Shown piece after piece: positions 41,584-53,733 of a stretch of 53,733 nt of DNA; the first letter of the stretch is position 1, and each line of letters starts with the position of its first letter. Source of the DNA: an uncultured Merdimonas sp. (GTDB taxonomy: Bacteria > Bacillota > Clostridia > Lachnospirales > Lachnospiraceae); NCBI GenBank assembly GCA_944375725.1, contig CALWAZ010000080.1:1-53733 (forward strand). Reading direction: 5' to 3'. Under the pieces are notes generated by a model, which saw nothing but the letters and a program-made list of their open reading frames with translations, had not been told where the DNA came from and ran no database searches. The position numbers and the translations under genes are program-made.

Positions 41584-42254
41584 TTTAATACCGCCTTATA
41601 CCCCAGCCCGTGGACCGTGACAATCTGAAACTCTTCACAGCCTGCAAATTTACTCCTCAGTTTTGTCATATAGACGTCTACCGTCCGAAGCCCGGAGGAC
41701 GTATCTCCGTCCCAGAATTCATCCATCAGCTGAGAACGGGTAAAGGTCTTTTTCGGATAGGAAAGCAGCTTATAAATCAGATTGAATTCCCGTACCGTAA
41801 GCGGAATCTCTTCTCCATCCAGATAGGCCGATCTTTCATCCGCGTCCAGTACCAGCTTCCCGATCTCCAGCTTATGGCTGCTGACAATCTTTGCCCGGCG
41901 CAGCAGCGCCCCGATACGCAGCAGCAGCTCATCCAGATCCACAGGCTTCACCATATAGTCATCGATCCCCGTCTGAAATCCCTTCTGTTTGGAGGCGAAA
42001 TCATCCCGGGCCGTCATAAACAGAATCGGTATCTCCTGATCCTGTCCGCGGACCGTCCTGGCAAACTCAAAACCATCCACATCCGGCATCATGATATCCG
42101 ATATAATCAAATCAAACAAAGAACCTCCGTACATGGCATCATAGGCTTCCCCGGCATTCAGACAGCCCACAGCCTCATATCCATTCTGGCTCAGATAGGA
42201 GCATACGGTATGATTAAGTTCCTTATCATCCTCCACCACCAAGATTTTGAACAT
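41580..42254 (-). CDS. OmpR-family response regulator
   Basis: DNA-binding regulator of 224 residues. The receiver domain has the acidic pocket VVEDDKE at ~7-12, the phosphoacceptor Asp ~53 in LIISDIMMPDVDGFEF, Thr in PILFMTARDDF and Lys in MVKPVDLDELLLRI. The C-terminal winged helix (~128-224) has VLDADERSAYLDGEEIPLTV and RTVDVYMTKLRSKFAG, the PhoB/OmpR recognition region. It is the first gene of the operon. Short direct AACA repeats at an 11-bp interval lie just upstream of the likely promoter, a pattern that fits autoregulation by an OmpR-type protein. Confidence 0.93.
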   Translation of the reverse strand: MFKILVVEDDKELNHTVCSYLSQNGYEAVGCLNAGEAYDAMYGGSLFDLIISDIMMPDVDGFEFARTVRGQDQEIPILFMTARDDFASKQKGFQTGIDDYMVKPVDLDELLLRIGALLRRAKIVSSHKLEIGKLVLDADERSAYLDGEEIPLTVREFNLIYKLLSYPKKTFTRSQLMDEFWDGDTSSGLRTVDVYMTKLRSKFAGCEEFQIVTVHGLGYKAVLK

Positions 42255-42286
42255 GTCTGATACCCCTTTCTCTGTGATCTTCTCCT

Positions 42287-42320
42287 TTTATAGCACAGAT
42301 TTGTTAACGAAATGTTTAAG
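42287..42320 (-). promoter_or_regulatory. Putative promoter and direct repeats ahead of the two-component operon
   Basis: Minus strand: a TATAAA -10 at 42287-42292 with no good -35; in its place TTAAACA and GTTAACA lie with AACA repeated at 11 bp (42303-42320). This fits activation by an OmpR-type regulator. The rest of 42321-42474 shows only AT-rich sequence. Confidence 0.4.
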
Positions 42321-42474
42321 TTCGGGCCAGAAAACAAAAAAATACAGGCCGTTTATCAGGCTCAAATCATCCTCTGCAAAGAATATACGCCTCATTTTCC
42401 TTCACCATCCCCGGTTCTCTAAATAGCTGTTTCCCATTATAATGCCATTCTTCTTATAATACAACGAAAGGACG

Positions 42475-42509
42475 GCGAAAAAACCGACCGGACTTCTCCG
42501 ATCGGTTTT
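42475..42509 (-). terminator. Terminator after the acetamidase remnant
   Basis: Stem AAAACCGA/TCGGTTTT with an inner CGG/CCG pairing, followed by T residues on the minus strand. Still intact although the gene it served is broken. Confidence 0.78.
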
Positions 42510-42543
42510 GTTCTTTCACCGTGCCCCGGCAAAGCCTCAAATA

Positions 42544-43110
42544 TCAAAAAAGACTTCCCAGCACTGCCTTTTTCATCTCCATACGGACTGTGCGTTTCGG
42601 ATCTACCACCTGACAGAACTGCAGGTTTCCCATGGCGCTTAAAAGAATTCCAGCCTCTTCGTACGACAGCCCCAGCTTTTTTTCCACAACCCATGCCATC
42701 GCATCAACAGCTGTAAATACCGCTTTTTCTATGTCCTGATCTGATGCGATCGTATAGCAGCTTTCGCTGTCCTCCAGCATGGGGTTTTCAATGTAAACTC
42801 CCTTCAGTACCTCTACCTTCACCTGTATTTCCGCAGGTATTTCAAGCCCTGTCACCATAATCTCCCCATCCCCCATGCAGGCATGGACATCGCCCATGGC
42901 AAGAAGAGCTCCCTCGTGGAAAACAGGCAGATATAAAACAGCCCCCTCCGCTATTTTCGTATTATCCATATTGCCACCGTGGCTTCCCGGTTCTCCGCAT
43001 GGAACCGCGCCCTCTTTCGGCGCCACACCAATGACGCCAATCATGGGCCTGCATGGGATCTGAATATTTTGTGAAAAGAATGCCGTATTATTTTTTACGG
43101 GAATCTGTTT
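42544..43110 (-). pseudogene. Acetamidase/formamidase, 3' two-thirds only
   Basis: The frame encodes the C-terminal ~190 residues of an acetamidase/formamidase-family enzyme, normally ~300 residues. Family blocks are PMIGVIGVAPKEGAVPCGEP, GSHGGNMDNT, LYLPVFHEGALLAMGDVHAC with MGDGE, and the C-terminal SAMGNLQFCQVVDPKRTVRM. Homology begins at about KQIPVKNNTAFF (~43110); the first ~100 residues are missing and the bases before it continue into eutA sequence. There is no convincing ribosome site at the junction. The remaining frame has no internal stop, so the loss is recent or the remnant is tolerated. I call it a pseudogene, produced by the deletion described for the eutA piece. Confidence 0.8.
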
Positions 43111-43124
43111 CAGCACGCTCTTTT

Positions 43125-43643
43125 TTATCTGTCCTCCCAAAACACTTCTCCATCCCGGAACACGCAAATGTTGGCGGTTCCTCCGCCGATATCCACATTG
43201 GCCGTAATTTTCCCGCTTTCCCGGGAAATACGATCTGCGCCTGCTCCTTTTCCGGCCAGAACCGCTTCCAAATCTGGTCCTGCTTCTGCTGTCACAAAAT
43301 CTCCGGCAAAATCCGCCAGCGCCTGCGCCACCGCACGCGCGTTTCTTTTTCTGGAGCTTTCTCCTGTAATAATAACGGCTCCCATCCGGATCTGCTTCGG
43401 ATCAAAACCGGCATTCCGATACTCACTGGCCACAAGACCGCGGACTGCGCCTTCATCAATATCCCCGCTTTCCTTCAGAGGAGTCTCATAGATCCGGCTG
43501 CGGTAAATAATATCCCTTTTTTTCATCCGTAATTTCGAAGCCCTGCCCCAGCTTTCTTCCTCCTCCAGCAGCAGCCTGCCAAATATCAGCTGCGTGGTGG
43601 AGGTCCCCACATCAATTCCCACACTGAACATACTCCGCTCCAT
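43125..43643 (-). pseudogene. eutA: EutA (ethanolamine ammonia-lyase reactivating factor), 5' third only
   Basis: EutA is an ATP-dependent chaperone that restores the B12 enzyme EutBC. The N-terminus is intact: MFSVGIDVGTSTTQLIFGRL (phosphate-1 motif), then GAVIITGESSRKRNARAV, AGDFVTAEAGPDLEAVLAGK with GAGA, and the second phosphate loop NVDIGGGTANICVFRDGE. After the latter the frame leaves homology, adds FWEDR and stops, at 172 of ~470 residues. GGGGAG precedes ATG 43643. There is no promoter between it and the ybaK terminator 12 bp upstream, so it was once inside an operon. No other eut gene is in the window. The junction to acetamidase sequence is ~43110-43140. Confidence 0.85.
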
Positions 43644-43654
43644 ACTGTTCTCCC

Positions 43655-43700
43655 CAAAAACAAACAGGACAATGAGAGCTGCGAAACTCCATTGTCCTGT
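43655..43700 (-). terminator. Terminator of the putP-ybaK operon
   Basis: Perfect 11-bp stem ACAGGACAATG/CATTGTCCTGT around a 15-base loop, followed on the minus strand by TTTGTTTTTGG. Confidence 0.85.
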
Positions 43701-43714
43701 CCATACTTCTTATT

Positions 43715-44206
43715 CTATTCTGTAATTACATCCGCAAAGCTTCCGCCCACGGCTTTCATCAGATCCTGCGGAGAAAGCTCCATCTGAGATCCCCTCCGTC
43801 CGCCGCTGACCATCACCTTCGGAAGCTTCAGCGCGCTTTCATCCATAACCACCGGAAACTGCTTTTTCATGCCGATACAGGTACAGCCGCCGCGTACGTA
43901 TCCGGTCAGATCCGTCAGTTCCTTCAGCGGCAGCATTTCTATGGCCTTCTCATGAACTGCCTTTGCCGCCTTTTTCAGATCCAGCTCTGCCTCAATGGGA
44001 ATCACAAAGACATAATGTTCCCGGCTCTTCGCCACAGTCACCAGGGTCTTGTACACCATCTCATGGGGCTGGCCCAGCATATCTGCCATACTGACGCCAT
44101 CCAGAAACTCCTCACAGTCGTAGGTATGAACCGTATAGGGAATCTTTTTCTGCTCCAGCAGCCGCATGGCATTGGTTTTTACATCCTTTTCCTTATGCTT
44201 CGCCAC
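43715..44206 (-). CDS. ybaK: Cys-tRNA(Pro)/Cys-tRNA(Cys) deacylase YbaK
   Basis: Trans-editing enzyme that removes Cys (or similar amino acids) from mischarged tRNA-Pro. The 163 residues follow the YbaK/EbsC fold: NAMRLLEQKKIPYTVHTYDC at the start, MVYKTLVTVAKSREHYVFVI, ELDLKKAAKAVHEKAIEMLP with the catalytic-site Lys region, YVRGGCTCIGMKKQFPVVMD, and VSGGRRGSQMELSPQDLMK. The start is GTG 44206, whose G is also the last base of the putP stop (TAGTG), so the genes are translationally coupled. A terminator follows at ~15 bp. Pairing with a proline transporter is of interest, because YbaK corrects errors of prolyl-tRNA synthetase. Confidence 0.93.
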   Translation of the reverse strand: MAKHKEKDVKTNAMRLLEQKKIPYTVHTYDCEEFLDGVSMADMLGQPHEMVYKTLVTVAKSREHYVFVIPIEAELDLKKAAKAVHEKAIEMLPLKELTDLTGYVRGGCTCIGMKKQFPVVMDESALKLPKVMVSGGRRGSQMELSPQDLMKAVGGSFADVITE

Positions 44207-45783
44207 TAGTCAATCGCCTGCCTTCCAGCCGCCAGATCAAACTCCTTTTCAATCTCACTGGAGGGTGCTTCTGTGGCAAGAGATACCACTACAATCACGA
44301 TACAGGAAATCACAAAGGCCGGGAACAGCTCATAGATGCTGAAAATGCCGCCCAGCGGGCTTAAGAGCAGATTCCATACAAAGACCATGATTCCTCCGGA
44401 CAGCATGCCGGCAACAGCTCCCTGCCGGTTGATGCGCTTCCAGAAAAGAGAGAACAGCATCACCGGTCCGAAGGTAGCTCCGAATCCGGCCCAGGCAAAG
44501 GATACAATATTAAAGATTACGCTGTCCTCATCCCATGCGATCACGATACCTACCAGAGTAATCAAAAGCAGCATGGTTCTGGACAGATTCATAACCTTTT
44601 TGTCATCCGCGTTATTTTTCTTCAGGATTCCCTCATACAGATTTTTGGAAACCGCAGAGGCCGCAATCAGCAGATAGGAGTCCGAGGAGCTGATTGTCGC
44701 TGCCAGAATTCCTGCCATGATGACGCCGGCCAGCACTGCCGGAAGCAGGCTCTGTGACAGCACAACAAATACGTTTTCCGCTCCGCTGGCTGTAGCAAGA
44801 CCCGCCTCTGTGGGGAAGAGCACGCGGCCGATCACGCCGATCACTACAGCTGCCGTAAGGGAAATCACACACCACACAGTCGCGATTCTTCTGGAATTTT
44901 TCAGCTCTCCCTCTTTCCGGATCGCCATAAACCGAAGCAGCACCTGGGGAACGCCAAAGTATCCAAGTCCCCAGGACAGTGTGGATATAATGGTCAGAAA
45001 ACCATAGCTTCCGGCCTCTCCGAACAGGGGCGCGCCTGCTGCCGCCTGCTGCACGCCGGCCGCGTCTGTCACCGGTGTGGCCTGGGAGATCAGAGAAAGG
45101 TATCCGGGGATCTTTGCCGCGTTTTCAATCACATTGCCCAGTCCGCCCGCCGCGGTAGTTCCCAGAATCAGAATCGTAAGCAGAGCAATGACCATGACCA
45201 CCGCCTGCATAAAATCAGAAGCACTCTCAGCCAGGAATCCTCCGATAAAGGTATAAATCAGCACAAAGATGGCTCCCGCGATCATCATAGAATGATAAGA
45301 GGTGCCGAACAGGGTCGAGAACAGCTTTCCGCAGGTCACAAAACAGCTGGCTGCGTATACGGTAAAGAACACCAGAATAAACAGCGCGGAAATTCCCAGA
45401 ATCACCTTTTTCTTCTCATGGAACCGGTTGCTCAGGAAATCCGGAATGGTGATGGAATCTCCCGCCACAGCCGAATACCGGCGCAGTCTCTTTGCCACAA
45501 TCAGCCAGTTCACATAGGTTCCGAGAGCCAGACCGATAGCCGTCCAGGCCGCGTCCGCAAGGCCGCACCAGTAGGCCACTCCGGGAAGTCCCATCAGAAG
45601 CCATCCGCTCATATCCGAAGCCTCCGCGCTCATGGCAGCCACCCAGGGACCTAACGATCTTCCGCCCAGGAAATAGTTCTCCGAGTTTGCCTGCGCCCGC
45701 TTTGCGAAATACAGGCCGATTCCGATGACTATCAGCATATAGCCGATCATCGCCAATAATATCTTCAGTGTATCACCTGACAT
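44206..45783 (-). CDS. putP: Sodium/proline symporter of the SSS family
   Basis: A 525-residue membrane carrier with about 13 helices. The N-terminus MSGDTLKILLAMIGYMLIVI and FLGGRSLGPWVAAMSAEASD match PutP, the last being the helix-2 sodium/proline region with Ser and Asp. GLALGTYVNWLIVAKRLRRY follows, then SITIPDFLSNRFHEKKKVIL. The signature VIMAGILAATISSSDSYLLI contains the sodium-binding Ser/Thr region, and FAWAGFGATFGPVMLFSLFW closes the core. Proline specificity is favoured by the conserved blocks but not proven. It has its own promoter, ATG 45783 with AAGGGAG upstream, and is coupled to ybaK. Confidence 0.92.
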   Translation of the reverse strand: MSGDTLKILLAMIGYMLIVIGIGLYFAKRAQANSENYFLGGRSLGPWVAAMSAEASDMSGWLLMGLPGVAYWCGLADAAWTAIGLALGTYVNWLIVAKRLRRYSAVAGDSITIPDFLSNRFHEKKKVILGISALFILVFFTVYAASCFVTCGKLFSTLFGTSYHSMMIAGAIFVLIYTFIGGFLAESASDFMQAVVMVIALLTILILGTTAAGGLGNVIENAAKIPGYLSLISQATPVTDAAGVQQAAAGAPLFGEAGSYGFLTIISTLSWGLGYFGVPQVLLRFMAIRKEGELKNSRRIATVWCVISLTAAVVIGVIGRVLFPTEAGLATASGAENVFVVLSQSLLPAVLAGVIMAGILAATISSSDSYLLIAASAVSKNLYEGILKKNNADDKKVMNLSRTMLLLITLVGIVIAWDEDSVIFNIVSFAWAGFGATFGPVMLFSLFWKRINRQGAVAGMLSGGIMVFVWNLLLSPLGGIFSIYELFPAFVISCIVIVVVSLATEAPSSEIEKEFDLAAGRQAID

Positions 45784-45818
45784 AACATTACTCCCTTGCT
45801 TTCAATAATTTTCCGTCT

Positions 45819-45847
45819 ATTTTAACATTTTTTTAACAGCGTGTAAA
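45819..45847 (-). promoter_or_regulatory. Promoter of putP-ybaK
   Basis: Minus strand: TTTACA, 17-bp spacer, TAAAAT, ~36 bp before the start codon. It abuts the terminator of the preceding operon. Confidence 0.7.
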
Positions 45848-45894
45848 GCAAAAAGCAGGATTCCAGCGGATTTTCCGCCTGGAACCCTGCTTTT
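45848..45894 (-). terminator. Terminator of the flx-frd-fum operon
   Basis: Stem AAAAGCAGG/CCTGCTTTT, one mismatch, then TTCCAG/CTGGAA and CGG/CCG. T-runs follow on both strands (TTTTTG on minus), so it is bidirectional in principle. Confidence 0.85.
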
Positions 45895-45921
45895 CCGTTC
45901 TTTTTTCAGGTGTTGAAAAAC

Positions 45922-46245
45922 TCAGACATTCCTGCCGTTTTCTCTTGCTTCATCCAGCTTTTTATTGCGGAGAAACAGAAGCATGTCGATACTGATTTCC
46001 ACTATATTCAGCACATAGAAAAACCATCCCAGATAAAACAGCCAGTCAAGAGAAGTACCTGCCGCGTTTGCCTCAGTCCAGAGAATAATCTTCCGGGCAA
46101 TTCCAAATACATAGCCGATCCAGATAAAAAACTCAAAAAACAGGCTCTTTCCCTTGGCAGTTCTGGAAATCCAGGACTTCCGTATGGAAAGGGGCCAGGA
46201 AAGGCCAAAACAGAGAATCATCATAGCTTCCAGTAAATTCGTCAT
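45922..46245 (-). CDS. Small membrane protein at the end of the fumarase/fumarate reductase operon
   Basis: A 107-residue protein with three hydrophobic segments: TNLLEAMMILCFGLSWPLSI, SLFFEFFIWIGYVFGIARKI, and WLFYLGWFFYVLNIVEISID. Pro in the first (SWPLSIRKSW) gives a PQ-loop-like look. The ends are basic (RNKKLDEARENGRNV). AAGGAAG precedes the ATG and it follows fumB by 37 bp, ahead of the operon terminator. It is too short and lacks paired His, so it cannot be recognised as the cytochrome b anchor of a quinone-linked fumarate reductase. Function unknown; an accessory membrane role for the operon is possible. Confidence 0.7.
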   Translation of the reverse strand: MTNLLEAMMILCFGLSWPLSIRKSWISRTAKGKSLFFEFFIWIGYVFGIARKIILWTEANAAGTSLDWLFYLGWFFYVLNIVEISIDMLLFLRNKKLDEARENGRNV

Positions 46246-46282
46246 CTGATATTCTTCCTTTCTTTGTCTTGTGACCTATTCC

Positions 46283-46846
46283 CTATGCCTGCTTTTTTCC
46301 CGCCAGATAGGCCGCTCTTCCCTCTTCGTACAGATTTCTTCCCTCACTGTCGATGATGACAATCAGAGGCATATCTTCCACATACAGTTTTCTCAGAGCC
46401 TCCGCGCCCAAATCCTCATATGCGATCAGCTCGCATTTCTTGATACATTTTGCCAGGAGAGCCCCCGCGCCGCCAATGGCGCCGAAGTAAACGCCATGAT
46501 ATTTTTTCATAGCCTCTACCACTTCCGGGAGTCTCGCGCCTTTTCCGATCATGCCCCGGGCACCGACAGACATCATTGTGGGAGCATACGCGTCCATACG
46601 CCCGCTTGTGGTGGGGCCGGCGCTTCCGATGACCTGCCCCGGTTTCGCCGGAGTCGGTCCCACATAATAGATCGTCGCGTCTGTAGGATCGAAGGGCAGT
46701 TTTTCTCCTCTGGCCAGAGCTTCACACATGCGCTTGTGTCCGGCGTCTCTGGACGTATAGATGGTTCCGGTCAGATATACTCTGTCTCCGGCATGAAGGG
46801 TCTTCGCAAGCTCCTCAGTCAGGGGCAGCTGAATATGTTTTTCCAT
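46283..46846 (-). CDS. Class I fumarate hydratase, beta (C-terminal) subunit
   Basis: Smaller subunit of the two-subunit, oxygen-sensitive [4Fe-4S] fumarase, a relative of L(+)-tartrate dehydratase beta. The 187 residues carry LPLTEELAKTLHAGDRVYLT, TIYTSRDAGHKRMCEALARG, the catalytic-site block YYVGPTPAKPGQVIGSAGPT with SGRMD, and VGARGMIGKGARLPEVVEAM; GAIGGAGALLAKCIKKCELI ends the core. The start is 1 bp after the alpha-subunit stop with GGAGGTG inside the end of that gene, so production is 1:1. Tartrate dehydratase is the main alternative; the setting with a fumarate reductase favours fumarase. Confidence 0.9.
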   Translation of the reverse strand: MEKHIQLPLTEELAKTLHAGDRVYLTGTIYTSRDAGHKRMCEALARGEKLPFDPTDATIYYVGPTPAKPGQVIGSAGPTTSGRMDAYAPTMMSVGARGMIGKGARLPEVVEAMKKYHGVYFGAIGGAGALLAKCIKKCELIAYEDLGAEALRKLYVEDMPLIVIIDSEGRNLYEEGRAAYLAGKKQA

Positions 46847-46847
46847 A

Positions 46848-47690
46848 TTAAATCACCTCCGTCTTATGGCGCGTCACATGGCAGTTGATATTGACCGCAC
46901 AGGGCATGCCTGCTATATGGGTGGGCATCGTCTCAATATTCAGGCCGATGGCCGTCGTCTTTCCGCCAAAGCCCTGGGGTCCGATTCCCAGCTCATTGAT
47001 TTTCTCCAGCATTTCCTTCTCCAAATCCGCGTAGAACGGATCCGGATTGGAGGAATCCAGAGGCCGCATCAGTGCCTTTTTCGCAAGCAGCGCACACTTG
47101 TCGAAGGTTCCTCCGATTCCCACTCCCACCACAATAGGCGGGCAGGGATTCGGTCCTGCATTTTCCACTGTCTCGATAATGAAATCCTTGATGCCCTGAA
47201 GACCCGCGGAAGGCTTGAACATCCGGATAGCGCTCATGTTTTCGCTTCCAAATCCCTTGGGGCCCACCGTAATCTTAATCTGTTCTCCCGGAACGATTTC
47301 CGTGTAAAGCATGGCCGGCGTATTATCTCCCGTATTTCCCCGGCGCACCGGATCCTTCACCACAGATTTTCTCAGGTAGCCTTTCTGATAGCCCCTGCGC
47401 ACTCCCTCGTCCACTGCCTCTCTCAGATCTCCGCCTGTCATATGTACATCCTGTCCGATCTCAAGGAACACACAGGCCATTCCGGTGTCCTGGCAGATCG
47501 GGACCTCTTCCGCGTCCGCGATTTCAAAATTCTCAATAATGTCATCAAGAATTCCTTTCGCGATTTCTCCATCCTCGCAGGCGCGGCAGCACCGGATCGC
47601 TTCCTTTACGTCCTTCGGAAGATGCTCGTTTGCCGCGATGCAGAGCCGCTCCACCGCGTCTGTAATCTGGCTCACATCTATTTCCCGCAT
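46848..47690 (-). CDS. Class I fumarate hydratase, alpha (N-terminal) subunit
   Basis: Iron-sulfur subunit, 280 residues, interconverting malate and fumarate together with the beta subunit. Three cluster Cys are at the expected places: CQDTGMACVFLEIG near residue 73, NPCPPIVVGVGIGGTFDKCA (~185-205, two Cys including the ligand in the family), and MPCAVNINCHVTRHK near the end. ENMSAIRMFKPSAG and IGPQGFGGKTTAIGLNIETM are conserved. Start ATG 47690 has GGAGGTGGAG ahead. The 91-bp gap to the flavoprotein gene upstream holds a hairpin but no clear promoter, so it is probably co-transcribed and links malate to the fumarate reductase-like subunits. Confidence 0.9.
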   Translation of the reverse strand: MREIDVSQITDAVERLCIAANEHLPKDVKEAIRCCRACEDGEIAKGILDDIIENFEIADAEEVPICQDTGMACVFLEIGQDVHMTGGDLREAVDEGVRRGYQKGYLRKSVVKDPVRRGNTGDNTPAMLYTEIVPGEQIKITVGPKGFGSENMSAIRMFKPSAGLQGIKDFIIETVENAGPNPCPPIVVGVGIGGTFDKCALLAKKALMRPLDSSNPDPFYADLEKEMLEKINELGIGPQGFGGKTTAIGLNIETMPTHIAGMPCAVNINCHVTRHKTEVI

Positions 47691-47764
47691 ATTACTCCAC
47701 CTCCATAGCTGATATTATAATGATATTTCCTTTTTATACCCCTGTTTTTCTTCTGTGTCTGTCA

Positions 47765-47790
47765 CCCAGATAACCTTGTATCTATCTGGG
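47765..47790 (-). other. Hairpin over the stop of the flavoprotein gene
   Basis: Perfect 8-bp stem CCCAGATA/TATCTGGG with a 10-base loop. The 5' arm overlaps the flavoprotein's last codons and stop. No T-run follows, so it is probably not a terminator. It may be a processing or stability element between the frd and fum parts. Confidence 0.5.
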
Positions 47791-49386
47791 CATGCTGAAT
47801 GTATAATTCGGCAGCAGCATCGGCGATACGCTTCCCGTATGCAGGCCGGCCGCCTCCAGCTCCTCGGCGTATTTCCGCAGATGGTCCAGATTCATCTTTC
47901 CAAGCTCCACCTCTTTGGCTCTGGCCGCGGCAGCTTTTCCCGCGTTTCGTCCAAACACGATGATGTCAAGCAGGGAATTTCCCATCAGACGGTTTCTTCC
48001 GTGGATGCCTCCCACAGCCTCTCCCGCAACGAGCAGGTTCGGAATCACCTTGGTAAAGCCGTCTCCGCCGATCTCCAGGCCGCCATTCTGATAATGAAGG
48101 GTCGGATAAATCAGGATAGGCTGCTTTCTCATATCAATGCCGTAATTCAGGAACATCCGCAGCATGGCGGGGATTCTCTTTTCTATCGTTCCTTCCCCAT
48201 GAAGCATTTCGATCATGGGCGTATCCAGCCAGATGCCCCAGCCTGTGGGAGTCTTGACTCCCTTGCCTCTCTCCGTACATTCCCGGATAATGGACGCCGC
48301 CGACACGTCTCTCGTCTCCAGCGGATGCATGAAAGCCTCTCCGTCCACATTGACCAGCATGGCTCCCACGGAACGCACCTTCTCTGTCACCAGCGCTCCG
48401 AAAATCTGCGCCGGGTACGCCGCTCCGGTGGGATGGTACTGAATCGTATCCTGGTAGAGAAGGGGAGCTCCCGCCCGGTATCCCATCACCAGTCCGTCCG
48501 CTGTGGCGCCGTAATGGTTGGAGGTGGGGAAATTCTGATAATGAAGCCGTCCGGCTCCTCCAGTGGCGATAATCACTGTTTTTGCTCTGGCCACCTTATA
48601 TTCTCCCGTCTCCATATTCTGAAGCACGGCGCCCGCCACCTGGCCTTTATCATCCTTAATCAGCTCTACTGCTGCCGTAAAATCCACCACCGGAATCTGC
48701 CGGTTCCAGACCTCATCGCGAAGCACACGCATAATCTCCGCTCCGGAATAATCCTTGCAGGCATGCATTCTCTTTCTGGAGGTTCCGCCGCCATGGGTGG
48801 TAATCATCCGTCCATCCTTATCCTTGTCAAACATCACGCCCAAATCATTCAGCCACTGAATGGCATCCGGCGCTTCCATGACCAGACGGCGCAGCAGCTC
48901 CGGCCTTGCCGCGAAATGTCCGCCGCCGAAGGCGTCCAGATAATGACGCTGGGGAGAGTCGTTCTCCTTATCAGCCGCCTGAATGCCGCCCTCTGCCATC
49001 ATGGTATTTGCGTCTCCGAGACGGAGCTTTGTCACCATCATCACGTCAGCTCCCGCCATGTGGGCCTCCAGCGCCGCAGATGCGCCGGCTCCGCCTCCGC
49101 CGATGACCAGTACTTCCACATCGTAATCGATCTTGTCCAGGTCAATCGGCACATTTAAGATACGGCTGTTGGAGTGAAGCAGCGTTCCCAGCTCAAAGGG
49201 AGCCTTTTCTCCCTTATTCGGGCCTACCTTAATCTCCTGGAAGCCGTCAGTCCGGTAATCCGGATGGAATCTGCGCAGCAGCTCGTCCTTTTCCTCTGCT
49301 GTCATTCTTCTGGGCTCCACGCCCAGACGCTGCGCTCTGGTGGCTTCCACCTTCTTAATTGATTCCAGCATTTCCGCTGTATACAT
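47782..49386 (-). CDS. Soluble fumarate reductase-type flavoprotein
   Basis: A 534-residue FAD enzyme of the succinate dehydrogenase/fumarate reductase flavoprotein superfamily. After an unusual ~85-residue N-terminal extension comes the FAD motif VLVIGGGGAGASAALEAHMA (~93-112). Where FrdA has the covalently flavinylated His (SHTVAAEGG) this one reads ANTMMAEGGIQAA, Asn at ~127, so FAD should be non-covalent. Substrate-site blocks are conserved: IQYHPTGAAYPAQIFGALVT with EKVRSVGAML, TLHYQNGGLEIGG, and GEAVGGIHGRNRLMGNSLLD. No signal peptide. Its partner iron-sulfur subunit is 14 bp upstream. Fumarate is the expected acceptor because fumarase follows; related reductases of other enoates, aspartate oxidase or adenylylsulfate reductase are less likely. 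Confidence 0.87.
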   Translation of the reverse strand: MYTAEMLESIKKVEATRAQRLGVEPRRMTAEEKDELLRRFHPDYRTDGFQEIKVGPNKGEKAPFELGTLLHSNSRILNVPIDLDKIDYDVEVLVIGGGGAGASAALEAHMAGADVMMVTKLRLGDANTMMAEGGIQAADKENDSPQRHYLDAFGGGHFAARPELLRRLVMEAPDAIQWLNDLGVMFDKDKDGRMITTHGGGTSRKRMHACKDYSGAEIMRVLRDEVWNRQIPVVDFTAAVELIKDDKGQVAGAVLQNMETGEYKVARAKTVIIATGGAGRLHYQNFPTSNHYGATADGLVMGYRAGAPLLYQDTIQYHPTGAAYPAQIFGALVTEKVRSVGAMLVNVDGEAFMHPLETRDVSAASIIRECTERGKGVKTPTGWGIWLDTPMIEMLHGEGTIEKRIPAMLRMFLNYGIDMRKQPILIYPTLHYQNGGLEIGGDGFTKVIPNLLVAGEAVGGIHGRNRLMGNSLLDIIVFGRNAGKAAAARAKEVELGKMNLDHLRKYAEELEAAGLHTGSVSPMLLPNYTFSMPR

Positions 49387-49400
49387 ATCCGCTTCCCTCC

Positions 49401-50075
49401 TTATTTCTCAATATCCCGGTTGTTGTACAGTTCCTGCATTTCCGTGATGGGCTTTTCCATAATCTGTTCGATCAGATCGTCAAAGGCGCCGCTGTGGATT
49501 TCCTCCACACGTTTTTCCAGATGCTCCGCCTTCGGCGCAATGTATTTTCCGGTCAGCCTTCTTGCCAGCGTACCCACCATCGGATGAGAAATGCCTGCCG
49601 GACAGCGGGAGGTGCAGATGCCGCAGCCGATACAGTCGAAGGACTCCTCCGCGCATTTTTCAAAGTCGCCCCGCTGAGCGTAAGCGATATACTGCATGAC
49701 ATTCAAAGACTGGGGACAGCCCTTGGTACAGGCATTGCAGCCGATGCAGCTGTAGATTTCCGGATAAAGATCCATCATCACCCGCTGCTTCGGACTGATT
49801 TCCTCCATATCGTAATTCCGCTTATCTGCCGGGAAGAAGGGCAGCGTGGCGATATACATGCCTTCCTGCACCTGGGTCTGGCAGGCCAGGCAGGTCTTCA
49901 GTTCGTTGTTTCCCTTGATTCTGTAAATGGTCGCGCAGGCTCCGCAGAAACCGTGGCGGCAGCCGCAGCCCCGTACCAGCTTATAGCCTGCGTATTCCAT
50001 GGCCGTCATAATGGTCAGCTCTGCGGGCACGGAATATTTTTTTCCATAAAAATATACGTTTACCATTTCCTGCAT
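49401..50075 (-). CDS. SdhB/FrdB-like iron-sulfur subunit
   Basis: A 224-residue electron carrier. The N-terminal ferredoxin-like domain has a [2Fe-2S] pattern GCGCRHGFCGACATIYRI with a fourth Cys 14 residues later in LKTCLACQTQV. The C-terminal helical domain has two full [4Fe-4S] motifs, SCIGCNACTKGCPQ and DCIGCGICTSRCPA. Membrane-bound SdhB/FrdB usually bind one [4Fe-4S] and one [3Fe-4S] cluster, so two complete motifs suggest a ferredoxin-like relay. There is no C-terminal CCG domain such as in TfrB. It starts after a 309-bp gap from the flxA-like gene; ATG 50075 has only a distant ribosome site, and ATG 50066 is an alternative. Confidence 0.88.
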   Translation of the reverse strand: MQEMVNVYFYGKKYSVPAELTIMTAMEYAGYKLVRGCGCRHGFCGACATIYRIKGNNELKTCLACQTQVQEGMYIATLPFFPADKRNYDMEEISPKQRVMMDLYPEIYSCIGCNACTKGCPQSLNVMQYIAYAQRGDFEKCAEESFDCIGCGICTSRCPAGISHPMVGTLARRLTGKYIAPKAEHLEKRVEEIHSGAFDDLIEQIMEKPITEMQELYNNRDIEK

Positions 50076-50384
50076 GTTCTATGTACCGTTCCTTTCCTTG
50101 TTTCTGCTCATGGTTTGTGAGCACCCGATCTTCGTCTTCTCTCCGTCCGTCGCGCTGTCTGATATACCCCGCGCTGCTCTTCTCTGCCTTCGCAGCGCAT
50201 TTGATATACCCCGCGCTGTTCAAGCTCGATTCCGCCCTGTTTACGTTCTCTCTTTTCCTACTCTACAAGGGCTTCATCTCGCTTGAGGGCTGTCGCCCTA
50301 TACATCCAGCCGTCTTCGATCCGTCCGCCACGCAAGCGTGCCGTCCGTCTCTCTTCCGTCTGTCTGTGCAGCGCTCGTAGGGGA
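50076..50384. other. 309-bp gene-free gap with repeats
   Basis: No plausible gene is seen. Small open frames exist on both strands, but they have repeat-derived, low-complexity translations and no ribosome site. The stretch has a 17-bp direct repeat, several GACGGACGG units (near 50143, 50317 and 50341), a CACGC/GCGTG hairpin near 50331, and GGGC-ACA-GCCC type short stems near 50285. Base usage differs from the flanking genes. No obvious -35/-10 for the frd genes is visible in it. It may be a copy of a dispersed intergenic repeat. Confidence 0.6.
50160..50218. repeat. 17-bp direct repeat pair
   Basis: TGATATACCCCGCGCTG occurs at 50160-50176 and again exactly at 50202-50218, a period of 42 bp. 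Bases between the copies include CAGCGC, which inversely matches the end of each copy. Confidence 0.85.
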
Positions 50385-51239
50385 TCAATACTCTGGGGGC
50401 AGTTCGTCTATCTCGTCACAGCGGAACACGGGGCCGTCTTTGCAGACATACTTGGAACCGATGTTACAGCGGCCGCATTTTCCGACGCCGCATTTCATGC
50501 GAAGCTCCAGCGTGGTATAGACCTGGGTCTTTTCGAAGCCCATCTCTATCAGCGACTGCAGTGAGAATTTGATCATGACGGGCGGTCCGCAGACCAGCAC
50601 GGTCTTGTCTGTGGCAAATTCCAGTTCCTTCAGATAGGAGGGTACAAAGCCCACATGGCCGTCCCAGCCTTCCTGCTCCCGGTCGATGGTCAGATAGACG
50701 TTGACGCCGGGCGTCTTTGCCCAGACTTCCTGAATTTCCTTCAGCTGGACCAGATCGTCCTTGGAACGGGAACCGTAGAGGATATCGATGGTTCCATAAT
50801 TATCCCGCTTGTCCAGCACATAGTTGATGACGGAACGCAGGGGCGCAAGGCCGATGCCTCCGGCAATAAACAGAAGGTTCTGGCCCTTAAGGGCTGTCTC
50901 CACCGGAAAAGCATTGCCATAGGGGCCCCGCACAGTGATTTCTTCCCCCACATTCATTTCGTGAAGATAATCCGTCAGAGTTCCGCAGCGCTTGATGCTG
51001 AACTCCTGGAATTCGGTATTGGTCGGGGATGAGGTAATAGAGAACATGGCCTCGCCCACGCCGGGCACCGACACCATTGCGCACTGTCCGGGCATATGCT
51101 CAAAGAGCTTTCTGCCATCCCGGCCCACCACGCGGAAGGTCTTTACATCCGGCGTCTCTGTCCGGATATCGGTAATCACGCCAATCATGGGAATCAGCAC
51201 ATCTGTCTTTGTCTTTCCGCCGCAGCTGCACTCACACAT
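50385..51239 (-). CDS. FlxA-like NAD(P)H flavin oxidoreductase subunit
   Basis: A 284-residue subunit with ferredoxin-reductase fold, close to sulfhydrogenase gamma, AsrB and PyrK. It has an FAD domain (~18-110; EFQEFSIKRCGTLTDYLHEM, GPYGNAFPVE) and an NAD(P) domain with LLFIAGGIGLAPLRSVINYV and VLVCGPPVMIKFSLQSLIEM. The C-terminus binds [2Fe-2S] through LRMKCGVGKCGRCNIG and YVCKDG. The first Cys cluster, MCECSCGGK, is an extra. In FlxABCD-HdrABC systems this subunit takes electrons from NADH. The start overlaps the flxB-like stop by one base (TAATG) with GGAGGTGAGG ahead. NADH rather than NADPH cannot be read with certainty. Confidence 0.85.
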   Translation of the reverse strand: MCECSCGGKTKTDVLIPMIGVITDIRTETPDVKTFRVVGRDGRKLFEHMPGQCAMVSVPGVGEAMFSITSSPTNTEFQEFSIKRCGTLTDYLHEMNVGEEITVRGPYGNAFPVETALKGQNLLFIAGGIGLAPLRSVINYVLDKRDNYGTIDILYGSRSKDDLVQLKEIQEVWAKTPGVNVYLTIDREQEGWDGHVGFVPSYLKELEFATDKTVLVCGPPVMIKFSLQSLIEMGFEKTQVYTTLELRMKCGVGKCGRCNIGSKYVCKDGPVFRCDEIDELPPEY

Positions 51240-52288
51240 TATACCTCACCTCCCAGTTTCTTAATCACTTTTACGATATTTAAAGACGCGGGACATTTGC
51301 TGACGCAGCGTCCGCAGCCCACGCAGGAATATAAGCCGTCATAATTCGCCGGATAGTAGACCAGCTTGTGCATGAATCTCTGGCGGAACCTCTGTATCTG
51401 GCTGGTGCGCATATTTCCATGGGCCATCATGGTAAAGTCAGAATACATGCAGGAATCCCAGCAGCGGTAACGCTGTACGCCGTTCTTTCCGCCATCGAAA
51501 TCCCGGATGTCGTAGCACTGGCAGGTGGGACATACAAAGGTACAGGTGCCGCAGGCCAGGCAGGGCTTGTACAGTTCCTCCCAGAGAGGGGAATCAAAAA
51601 GCTCCATGGTATGTTCCGGCTTAAACCGGGAAAGGTCCAGGTGGGACAAAGGCAGCTTCTCGATGATCTTCCGGATGGCTTCCTGTTCCTCTGCCACAGT
51701 TTTTTCCGCCTCTTCTGCCGGAGTTTCTTTTTCCGTACTTTCCAGAACTGCTTTCAGGCTTTCTGTCAGCGCCTCTCCCTTTTCCGTCAAAGGTTTCCAG
51801 TACAGGCTGTCCTCTATGATCCAGGTCTCCACATCGGCTCCGGGAGCCGCCGCGTCGATGCCGAAGTTTGCGCAGAAGCAGGTTTCCTCCGGCTCATGAC
51901 AGGCCAGAGAGACAATCGTTCCATGCTCCCGGCGGGCTGCATAGAAGGTGTCCACCGGCTCGCTTAAAAACACATTGTCCAGCACTTCCACTGCCTTTAC
52001 GTCGCAGGCTCTCATCCCAAATACCACAAACGCCCTGTCACAGAGCTTCTGGGGATCGATGGAGAGCTTTCCGTCCTCCGACTTGCAGCGGTAGAGCACC
52101 TCGCTCTGGGGGAAGAAGCAGTCCTTGGCGGACTTTACGGTTTTCAGCGTGTCCAGATCAAAGGGCTCTCCTTCGCTCCACAGCCCGTAATTGGTCTGAT
52201 CGGCTTTCCGTAAGGGGAGGAAGAGATCCTGCGTTTCGCTGATGGCCGCAAAGAGCTCTGCAAGCCCTGCTGTTTCGATTCTGTACAT
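51239..52288 (-). CDS. FlxB-like iron-sulfur subunit (AsrA/HydB-type)
   Basis: A 349-residue protein like anaerobic sulfite reductase subunit A and sulfhydrogenase beta. The N-terminal half (~1-170) is the family domain with DRAFVVFGMRACDVKAVEVL and CHEPEETCFCANFG. A Glu/Lys-rich linker (~180-220) is followed by two [4Fe-4S] motifs: CLACGTCTFVCPTCQCYDIR and YSCVGCGRCVSKCPASLN, the first with extra Cys and a CWDSC downstream. It carries electrons between the flavin subunit and the next clusters. The start ATG 52288 lies just after the flxC-like stop, and GGAGG overlaps that stop; the longer frame would add 8 residues. Confidence 0.84.
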   Translation of the reverse strand: MYRIETAGLAELFAAISETQDLFLPLRKADQTNYGLWSEGEPFDLDTLKTVKSAKDCFFPQSEVLYRCKSEDGKLSIDPQKLCDRAFVVFGMRACDVKAVEVLDNVFLSEPVDTFYAARREHGTIVSLACHEPEETCFCANFGIDAAAPGADVETWIIEDSLYWKPLTEKGEALTESLKAVLESTEKETPAEEAEKTVAEEQEAIRKIIEKLPLSHLDLSRFKPEHTMELFDSPLWEELYKPCLACGTCTFVCPTCQCYDIRDFDGGKNGVQRYRCWDSCMYSDFTMMAHGNMRTSQIQRFRQRFMHKLVYYPANYDGLYSCVGCGRCVSKCPASLNIVKVIKKLGGEV

Positions 52289-52289
52289 G

Positions 52290-53276
52290 CTATCTTCCGC
52301 CTCCTCTCTCATTTACAATTCCCGGCTCCACGTCCTCAAAGGTGAAATCCGTCAGCGGGGCCCGGCTTTCCGTATCGGCTCCGGCCTGATACTCGCCGTA
52401 GAAGGTATTGATATCCTTGATGAATTTCCGGTTCAGAAGCTGAAGCGGGATTCCTTCCGGACATACCCTGCTGCACTCGCCGCAGTCCGTACAGCGCCCG
52501 GCCACATGATAAGCCCGGATAATGTGGAACATCTGCTCCTCAAAGGTATCCGCATTGGCCTTCTGGCTGCTGTCAAACTGATTTCCGTCAAACACGCATT
52601 TCAGACAGCTGCAGGCAGGACAGACATTCCGGCAGGCGTTGCAGCGGATACACTTGGAGAGTTCTCTCTGCCAGAACGCAAAGCGTTCCTTCGGGGACAG
52701 AGCCTCCAGCTCTTCCACCTTCGCGAAGCGGTTCCCTGCCAGTTCTCCCGGCCCCGCCTCTTCGCCTTCCTCCGCGCCGATCAGCTCATCAAAGACCACA
52801 TGGGTCTTCCCTTTGCAGACCTGGCAGCGCTCCAGAAGAGCGTCCATCAGGGGCATCTCCTTTTCTCCGTAAAGGGTCTTTACCTTCAAGGTGTCTCCCT
52901 CGATGGCGGCGTCTTCAATACCCTTGATTCCGGCGTTTAAAACCTTCTCCGCTTTTACAGTGCCGTGGCAGCCCACGCCGATGATATAAGTCTTTTCCCG
53001 CTTCACCCGGTGCTCTTTTACAAGCTCGTTCAAGCTGTAGGTATCGCAGGGTTTTAAAAATACAAGCGTCGTGCCCTCCAGTTTTCCGGCCGCGATCAGA
53101 TATTTGCTTAAGTTCGCGCCGCAGAAAGGATTATACACGAAATCCTTCAAATCTTCTTCTTTGTCAAAATAAGCAGGCTCCGGGTCCCAGCCCATATCGC
53201 CCTTTTTCCAGCCCAAGACCCGCGACACGGTTCCGTCTGCCAGAAGCTCTTTTGCTCTTGTGATCAGTTCTTGCAT
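52290..53276 (-). CDS. FlxC-like iron-sulfur subunit (FrhB/HydB-type)
   Basis: A 328-residue iron-sulfur protein. The N-terminal ~150 residues resemble FrhB/HydB-type domains (FCGANLSKYLIAAGKLEG, VFLKPCDTYSLNELVKEHRV, IIGVGCHGTVKAEKV). A CQVC pair lies at ~150. Two [4Fe-4S] motifs follow: CIRCNACRNVCPACSCLKCV, with extra Cys, and CTDCGECSRVCPEGIPLQL. Together with the flxB-like neighbour this gives a paralogous pair. Its start lies 13 bp inside the flxD-like gene and its stop touches the flxB-like start, so the subunits are translationally linked. Exact equivalence with FlxC of Desulfovibrio is by order and domain type, not checked by alignment. Confidence 0.8.
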   Translation of the reverse strand: MQELITRAKELLADGTVSRVLGWKKGDMGWDPEPAYFDKEEDLKDFVYNPFCGANLSKYLIAAGKLEGTTLVFLKPCDTYSLNELVKEHRVKREKTYIIGVGCHGTVKAEKVLNAGIKGIEDAAIEGDTLKVKTLYGEKEMPLMDALLERCQVCKGKTHVVFDELIGAEEGEEAGPGELAGNRFAKVEELEALSPKERFAFWQRELSKCIRCNACRNVCPACSCLKCVFDGNQFDSSQKANADTFEEQMFHIIRAYHVAGRCTDCGECSRVCPEGIPLQLLNRKFIKDINTFYGEYQAGADTESRAPLTDFTFEDVEPGIVNERGGGR

Positions 53277-53704
53277 CGCAGATCCTCCAGTCTCACGTTT
53301 TCTCCCAGCTCGTGGATCTTCGCCACGAACTCATTCATGGTCGTCGAGAATTTTACGCCCTCGGCCGCGGACACCCATTCCACACGGGTGCGCCCATTCT
53401 CCACTCCCAGGTAATCCAGCATGGAAAACAGAAGCGTCATTCTTCTTCTGGTGTAATAGTTGCCCGTAGTATAGTGGCAGTCCCCCGGATGGCAGCCGCA
53501 GAGAATCACACCATCGGCCCCTCTCTGGAAGGCTCTCAAGATAAACATGGGATTCACCCGGCAGGAGCAGGGCACCCGGATAATCTTCACATCCGCCGGA
53601 TAGGCGAGGCGGCTGCTGCCGGCCAGGTCCGCTCCGGCGTAGCTGCACCAGTTGCAGCAGAACGCCACGATTTTCGGTCGGAATTCTGTATTTTCTACCT
53701 GCAT
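53264..53704 (-). CDS. FlxD/MvhD-like electron-transfer subunit
   Basis: A 146-residue [2Fe-2S] protein of the MvhD family, which hands electrons to HdrA. Cys are in the family positions: VAFCCNWCSYAGADLAG at ~13-29, VPCSCRVNPMFILRAFQRGA at ~43-62, and VILCGCHPGDCHYTTGN at ~65-82. YYTRRRMTLLFSMLDYLGVE and RVEWVSAAEGVKFSTTMNEF complete it. ATG 53704 has GGAGGTGGAT ahead. It overlaps the tail of the probable hdrA gene by 10 bp, so it is coupled. This subunit, with an HdrA neighbour, is the strongest sign that the locus uses an HdrA-type flavin complex. Confidence 0.92.
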   Translation of the reverse strand: MQVENTEFRPKIVAFCCNWCSYAGADLAGSSRLAYPADVKIIRVPCSCRVNPMFILRAFQRGADGVILCGCHPGDCHYTTGNYYTRRRMTLLFSMLDYLGVENGRTRVEWVSAAEGVKFSTTMNEFVAKIHELGENVRLEDLRCKN

Positions 53705-53733
53705 ATCGCATCCACCTCCGCAAGAATTTGTCT
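53695..53733 (-). CDS. C-terminal end of a probable HdrA-like protein
   Basis: Only the last 12 codons are in the window: minus strand reading gives RQILAEVDAICR then TAG at 53697-53695. Many HdrA proteins end in a D-EQILA-I-DA type helix, and HdrA normally precedes mvhD, so this is probably the 3' end of hdrA. The identity is inferred from the short tail and the neighbours; the flavin and cluster domains are outside the window. Confidence 0.55.
   Translation of the reverse strand, partial: RQILAEVDAICR

Follow-up and report, generated by a model that had tools for sequence, protein, structure and literature searches.

Flx-Hdr genes combined with a fumarate reductase have been described in Pseudoclostridium thermosuccinogenes, whose 'succinate operon' is given, in the sections of PMC7282089 dealing with it, as fumarase, Flx-Hdr (RS03360-30), fumarate reductase (RS03325-20) and a hypothetical protein, with ferredoxin-linked fumarate reduction being assumed there as earlier proposed (preprint 10.20944/preprints201912.0288.v1). 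If numbered in steps of five, the locus tags RS03360-30 would allow for seven genes. Here we describe an operon on the minus strand of contig CALWAZ010000080.1 from an uncultured Merdimonas sp., a complete contig of 53733 bases (G000:C80) that we call the window, in which fumarase, Flx-Hdr and fumarate reductase genes likewise stand together. Compared by text description only, the two operons differ in the position of fumarase, first there and last here, and in their hosts, a thermophile versus a metagenome-assembled genome from the gut. A bifurcating Flx-Hdr fumarate reductase was already proposed for P. thermosuccinogenes (2019-2020), and the operon described here is a wider-spread member of that proposed kind.

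For NADH input and HdrABC the operon has the same seven subunits as FlxABCD-HdrABC of Desulfovibrio, from which it differs by having frdBA and fumarase in the operon; HdrB of the Desulfovibrio complex probably acts on a DsrC-type disulfide. As far as PMC5861303 treats it, MetFV-HdrABC-MvhD of Moorella likewise contains HdrABC as proposed bifurcating core with a non-disulfide acceptor, whereas its acceptor enzyme and NADH module differ from those found here. In tubeworm symbionts tfrAB lies beside flxABCD-hdrABC, and direct electron flow from Hdr-Flx to TfrAB has been raised in the relevant parts of PMC6315080 and PMC11636981; Hdr-Flx genes are nearby in both cases, whereas a 2-oxoglutarate oxidoreductase is not found within the operon here. 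The ordinary sdhABCD beside an acs-hdrA cluster, as presented in the corresponding part of PMC8671834, has no bearing on it. In the accessible portions of open-access full texts we found no report of a purified bifurcating fumarate reductase, and judged by the same full-text check the retention of HdrBC, the range among Clostridia, the modular partnerships of FrdBA and the case for HdrB as a relay may be new.

HdrB and HdrC in the operon

A sequence-only reading of the window had listed on this strand an HdrA tail, FlxD, FlxC, FlxB, FlxA, FrdB- and FrdA-like proteins, both fumarase subunits and a small protein, and had proposed that FrdAB replaces HdrBC. The gene list is borne out by profile matches (Table 1) and so is the HdrA tail, tiny as it is, since the final 12 hdrA codons at the right edge (53733-53695) encode RQILAEVDAICR, which is the HdrA C-terminus of relatives. 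The replacement has to be rejected, by the refuting condition which that reading itself had set, because hdrB and hdrC are present in the same genome, on contig C123, and because the gene order is unbroken in all 68 related loci scored. FrdAB is added to HdrBC and is not a substitute for it.

Contig C123 (5300 bases) carries a gene of the lactate/malate dehydrogenase (LDH/MDH) family, hdrB, hdrC and the start of hdrA, cut off by the contig end after 231 codons. The HdrB-type domain PF02754 occurs in only one protein of the genome, with two matches, both on this contig. In the nearest relative whose contig spans the break (locus L048 of G008, FrdB 99% identical) the genes are contiguous. For the wider comparison we scanned named genomes with FrdB, where at least 503 of the 594 pattern matches encode a relative, and used the best 80, which by title come largely from Lachnospiraceae and other Clostridia, many of them from gut samples. 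Together with 19 relatives this gave a near set of 99 loci, reduced to 88 by removal of 11 FrdB duplicates and to 68 by setting aside 20 loci with less than 7.8 kb upstream of frdB. Every one of these 68 shows hdrB-hdrC-hdrA-flxD-flxC-flxB-flxA-frdB-frdA in the same order on the same strand. The idea of the sequence-only reading that a Flx module for NADH input and HdrA share an operon with fumarate reductase and fumarase is supported.

Only the two ends of the Merdimonas HdrA are in hand, and the full length is seen in relatives, where FAD and ferredoxin domains and the 4Fe-4S motifs are present. The alignment with 5odc_A, the HdrA of the bifurcating methanogen complex 5odc, covers residues 3-658, nearly end to end. 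The residues read as aligned with Glu356 and Lys409 of 5odc_A, which presumably adjoin the bifurcating FAD, are invariant (9/9 in alignment A3). The ten CCG cysteines of HdrB, forming two CCG sites, are kept in 76/76 sequences, the eight cysteines of the two 4Fe-4S motifs of HdrC in 74/74, and 11 cysteines of FlxC between residues 209 and 272 in 82/82.

The LDH/MDH-family gene beside hdrB (L014:2064-3020) scores over two curated cut-offs for LDH and one for MDH. It has an arginine at the specificity position, a residue which we assume to select malate; among 59 sequences, 19 show this arginine and 40 lay outside the search pattern.

Electron route, substrate and rival readings

We lean towards a cytoplasmic NADH:fumarate reductase built on an HdrABC core, bifurcating to ferredoxin and sending its high-potential electrons through HdrC, HdrB, FrdB and FrdA. 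The operon would comprise, after the LDH/MDH-family gene, hdrB, hdrC, hdrA, flxD, flxC, flxB, flxA, frdB, frdA, the fumarase alpha and beta genes and the gene for the small membrane-like protein. NADH would reduce the FAD of FlxA, from where FlxB, FlxC and FlxD would carry the electrons to the HdrA flavin as the putative site of bifurcation. The low-potential electrons would pass through the ferredoxin domains of HdrA to ferredoxin, to be used by Rnf, and the high-potential electrons would reach the FAD of FrdA via HdrC, HdrB acting as a relay like SdhE, and FrdB, so that FrdA could reduce fumarate to succinate.

RnfC is above cut-off in 16/16 genomes of the genus and PEP carboxykinase (PEP, phosphoenolpyruvate) occurs in 15/16, one weak (G004), while methylmalonyl-CoA mutase was found in none of the 16; this combination suits a route from PEP via oxaloacetate, malate and fumarate to succinate as end product, ferredoxin being consumed by Rnf. 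MenD is over cut-off in 0/16 genomes, with sub-cut-off matches in 16/16 and the futalosine route outside the search, and the fumarate reductase is probably independent of quinones. With a fumarate potential of +30 mV, the reaction of 2 NADH, fumarate and 2 oxidized ferredoxins would have a standard free energy of about -48 kJ/mol by our own arithmetic. The potentials used for ferredoxin (-420 mV) and NADH (-320 mV) are those quoted in PMC5861303. The Merdimonas genome itself encodes three RnfC-family proteins over the curated cut-off, on contigs C31, C84 and C134.

The same complex might work without bifurcation, with fumarate as a simple sink for NADH or with ferredoxin and NADH both as donors. 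Every carrier needed for this is present, no sequence feature proves bifurcation, and PMC5861303, in the part concerned, cautions that such genes are insufficient proof. We regard it as unlikely in view of the full HdrA with conserved residues near its FAD and of an Rnf in 16/16 genomes of the genus that could use the ferredoxin.

A direct relay from HdrB to FrdB is suggested by the near-equal scores of HdrB to the HdrB model (141.3 bits) and the SdhE model (136.4 bits, cut-off 500), both below cut-off, and by loci of the type hdrC-hdrB-frdB-frdA (see below). The SdhE-type methylmenaquinol:fumarate reductase has the CCG subunit, the Fe-S subunit and the flavoprotein in common with the operon, whereas its covalent-FAD histidine is replaced by asparagine here and MenD stays below cut-off in the genus. 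As to FrdB, its identity as a classical FrdB was rejected on account of two 4Fe-4S motifs and sub-cut-off scores to every listed FrdB, SdhB and TfrB model (TfrB: 45.9 bits, cut-off 385). The cysteine motifs of its one 2Fe-2S and two 4Fe-4S sites are invariant in 89/89 sequences, and a profile search for PF02754, the CCG domain, found no match in FrdB. FrdB matches positions 18-88 of the TfrB model, HdrC 125-219 and HdrB 416-487, so that the three together resemble a split TfrB; on its own this resemblance is weak because the dicluster part of the model is hit by FlxB and FlxC as well.

A second alternative is a thiol cycle in which HdrBC reduces a small disulfide and the thiol then reduces FrdAB as in TfrAB of methanogens. 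It would account for both CCG sites being retained in HdrB and for TfrA being the best-scoring NCBIfam model for FrdA (NF004900, 328.2 bits, cut-off 718 not reached). As FrdB is without the CCG domain, which we take to be the thiol site of TfrB, and no thiol carrier gene was recognised within the operon, such a cycle appears improbable.

Fumarate is well supported as the substrate of FrdA because the catalytic residues are kept, fumarase is adjacent and Dcu-type carriers accompany distant relatives. H318, E335, R359, H431 and R466 (positions from the alignment to 1nek), presumably the fumarate-binding and proton-transfer residues of SdhA/FrdA, are present in 90/90 sequences of the near set. 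When distant members are included the fumarate-binding residues are kept in 38/38, except Thr334 in 37/38. The position of the covalent-FAD histidine is occupied by asparagine in 90/90 and 38/38 sequences, respectively, in which FrdA differs from quinol:fumarate reductases (FrdABCD, SdhABE); in Frd of E. coli this exchange is reported to impair succinate oxidation. Of the 77 non-duplicate loci with 3.5 kb or more downstream, all have frdA and 60 have fumarase genes. Another enoate as substrate, or aspartate being oxidised with fumarase as a mere neighbour, could be argued from the breadth of the FAD_binding_2 family, from matches to urocanate reductase and NadB and from the 17/77 loci without downstream fumarase; we consider it very improbable given the conserved fumarate-binding residues, the fumarase of the other loci, the Dcu-type carriers in four distant loci with aspartase in one of them, and a NadB score (258.6) below its cut-off of 452.75. 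Many Hdr complexes are reversible, which would favour reverse running, with succinate oxidised and NAD+ reduced with the help of reduced ferredoxin. This is hardly credible, as the asparagine at the FAD position speaks against it and PEP carboxykinase and the LDH/MDH-family gene fit a reductive branch.

Partners and distribution of FrdBA

FrdB occurs in 15/16 genomes of the genus; in a class-wide sample of 391 genomes 54 have it, the Merdimonas genome counted. From the 53 others we took 25, with each family represented by one or two. Of these, 18 had enough upstream sequence; 17 contain the whole operon and the 18th is frdBA-hdrBCA-flxD. Loci were also found in the cultured species Blautia luti and Oliverpabstia intestinalis.

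In a sample of 398 genomes of the phylum 39 have FrdB, giving 38 loci besides that of the window, of which 31 were scored after seven partial contigs had been dropped. These distant loci hold hdrABC with flxD in 13 cases, all seven hdr-flx genes in one and a weak HdrC-like match in one. Four (L167, L179, L182 and L183) show hdrC-hdrB-frdB-frdA but lack an hdrA in the vicinity; such a minimal set would draw electrons from some other donor. When extended, four of the 13 turned out to be frdBA-hdrBCA-flxDCBA and adjoin C4-dicarboxylate genes, Dcu carriers in three and DcuC in the fourth; one of the four also has aspartase and an asparaginase-family gene, the latter under cut-off. In the other nine, hdrC, hdrB, hdrA and flxD stand together with a second large HdrA-like gene and one that is weakly FlxC-like. 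Since hdr and flx partners vary or are absent in these loci, FrdBA is a module with several travelling partners and sometimes none nearby.

As to single loci, frdBA-hdrBCA-flxDCBA beside C4-dicarboxylate carriers in L169 and L202-L205 looks like aspartate or fumarate respiration. L184, L185, L187, L190, L191, L194, L195 and L196 have two hdrA-like genes, one an open frame of about 1,050-1,100 amino acids, plus flxD; in L187, three stretches of the large protein match HdrA models. A similar locus, L180, carries two hdrB genes and a 1,495-amino-acid frame.

Several points weigh against the bifurcating NADH:fumarate reductase proposed above. The Merdimonas hdrA is split across two contigs and its contiguity is taken from relatives, and FrdB is patchy (20/61 relatives; 2/21 genomes from other genera of the family). 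In 12 of the 31 distant loci no hdr gene lies in the stretch examined, so that FrdBA can occur with no bifurcating module beside it, and at least three hdrA/flx arrangements accompany frdBA, so that the electron input varies. Both HdrB clusters look complete, which leaves room for a disulfide reductase role, and the small membrane-like protein at the operon end in some species allows for a membrane link. The AlphaFold model of FrdB is poor (mean predicted local distance difference test score 55.3, predicted template modelling score 0.37) and gives no support; the structure alignment comprised 47 of the 80 named loci plus the window. Finally, according to PMC11636981, expression of tfrAB in the tubeworm symbiont followed a pattern different from that of the Hdr-Flx cluster.

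Operon layout and implications for gut Clostridia

The window enters the operon from the right edge with the hdrA end, and the operon closes at a terminator hairpin (Table 1). This terminator, noted already by the sequence-only reading, is real, and 0/200 shuffles gave an equally good hairpin; it was absent from the output of a simple consensus scan. An Rfam search of 42000-53733 gave no match. Adjacent genes overlap all along from hdrA to flxA. A fused HdrA-FlxD had been considered, as the reading frame of FlxD continues without a stop up to the contig edge, and was rejected because relatives have separate genes with overlapping ends.

Table 1: Features of the operon in the window and on contig C123 of the same genome.
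Feature	Position	Strand	Basis and remarks
hdrB	C123 3388-4197		own genome
hdrC	C123 4190-4582		own genome
hdrA start	C123 4606-5298		own genome; runs off contig
hdrA, last 12 codons + stop	53695..53733	-	remainder past contig end; matches HdrA C-terminus of relatives (alignment A3)
flxD, MvhD/FlpD-like	53264..53704	-	PF02662 E 6.1e-54; start overlaps hdrA end
flxC-like 4Fe-4S protein	52290..53276	-	4Fe-4S dicluster matches; weak sub-cut-off FrhB/FdhB C-terminal match
flxB-like 4Fe-4S protein, AsrA/HydB family	51239..52312	-	PF17179 E 7.4e-31; sulfhydrogenase beta/AsrA models below cut-off
flxA-like FAD/NAD(P) reductase with Fe-S motif, AsrB/HydG family	50385..51239	-	PF00175, PF00970, PF10418
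frdB-like	49401..50075	-	one 2Fe-2S + two 4Fe-4S motifs; without CCG domain
frdA, fumarate reductase flavoprotein	47782..49386	-	PF00890 E 9e-67; top NCBIfam model TfrA; non-covalent FAD expected
class I fumarase alpha subunit	46848..47690	-	NF004885 421.9 bits, above cut-off 276
class I fumarase beta subunit	46283..46846	-	NF005310 284.2 bits, above cut-off 238
small protein, 107 amino acids, probably membrane	45922..46245	-	no Pfam/NCBIfam match; membrane reading by eye
intrinsic operon terminator	45845..45902	-	hairpin -33.2 kcal/mol, z -6.9, T-rich end

Between flxA and frdB lies a spacer of 309 bases (50076-50384), compared with 8 to 418 bases in related loci. Within it a 15-base repeat occurs in two exact copies and, with up to two mismatches allowed, nowhere else in the window. 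By eye, several of the long spacers from other species have a similar start and a palindromic core in common, and a search for this core in the window found no match. A relative of the 107-residue protein that ends the operon occurs in 19 of the 77 non-duplicate loci with 3.5 kb downstream; the hypothetical protein ending the P. thermosuccinogenes operon is named a potential succinate transporter in the part of PMC7282089 concerned with it.

Beyond this operon we tentatively propose that quinone-free fumarate respiration may be common in gut Clostridia, with HdrB having lost its disulfide reductase role to become a permanent relay from the bifurcation site of HdrA to FrdBA. FrdBA might then be a mobile acceptor module, elsewhere in the phylum partnered just by hdrCB or by differently arranged HdrA genes, and succinate formation might yield reduced ferredoxin and, via Rnf, ATP. 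As FrdB is found in 54/391 genomes of the class, the operon in 17/18 and loci in Blautia luti and Oliverpabstia intestinalis, the question can be tested in cultured species. If the proposal is true, gut Clostridia carrying the operon would conserve energy during succinate production, using neither quinones nor a classical membrane fumarate reductase, and the yield credited to this process in them would have to be recalculated. Furthermore, fumarate would become one of the few acceptors of HdrA-type bifurcation, with HdrB working as a plain wire.

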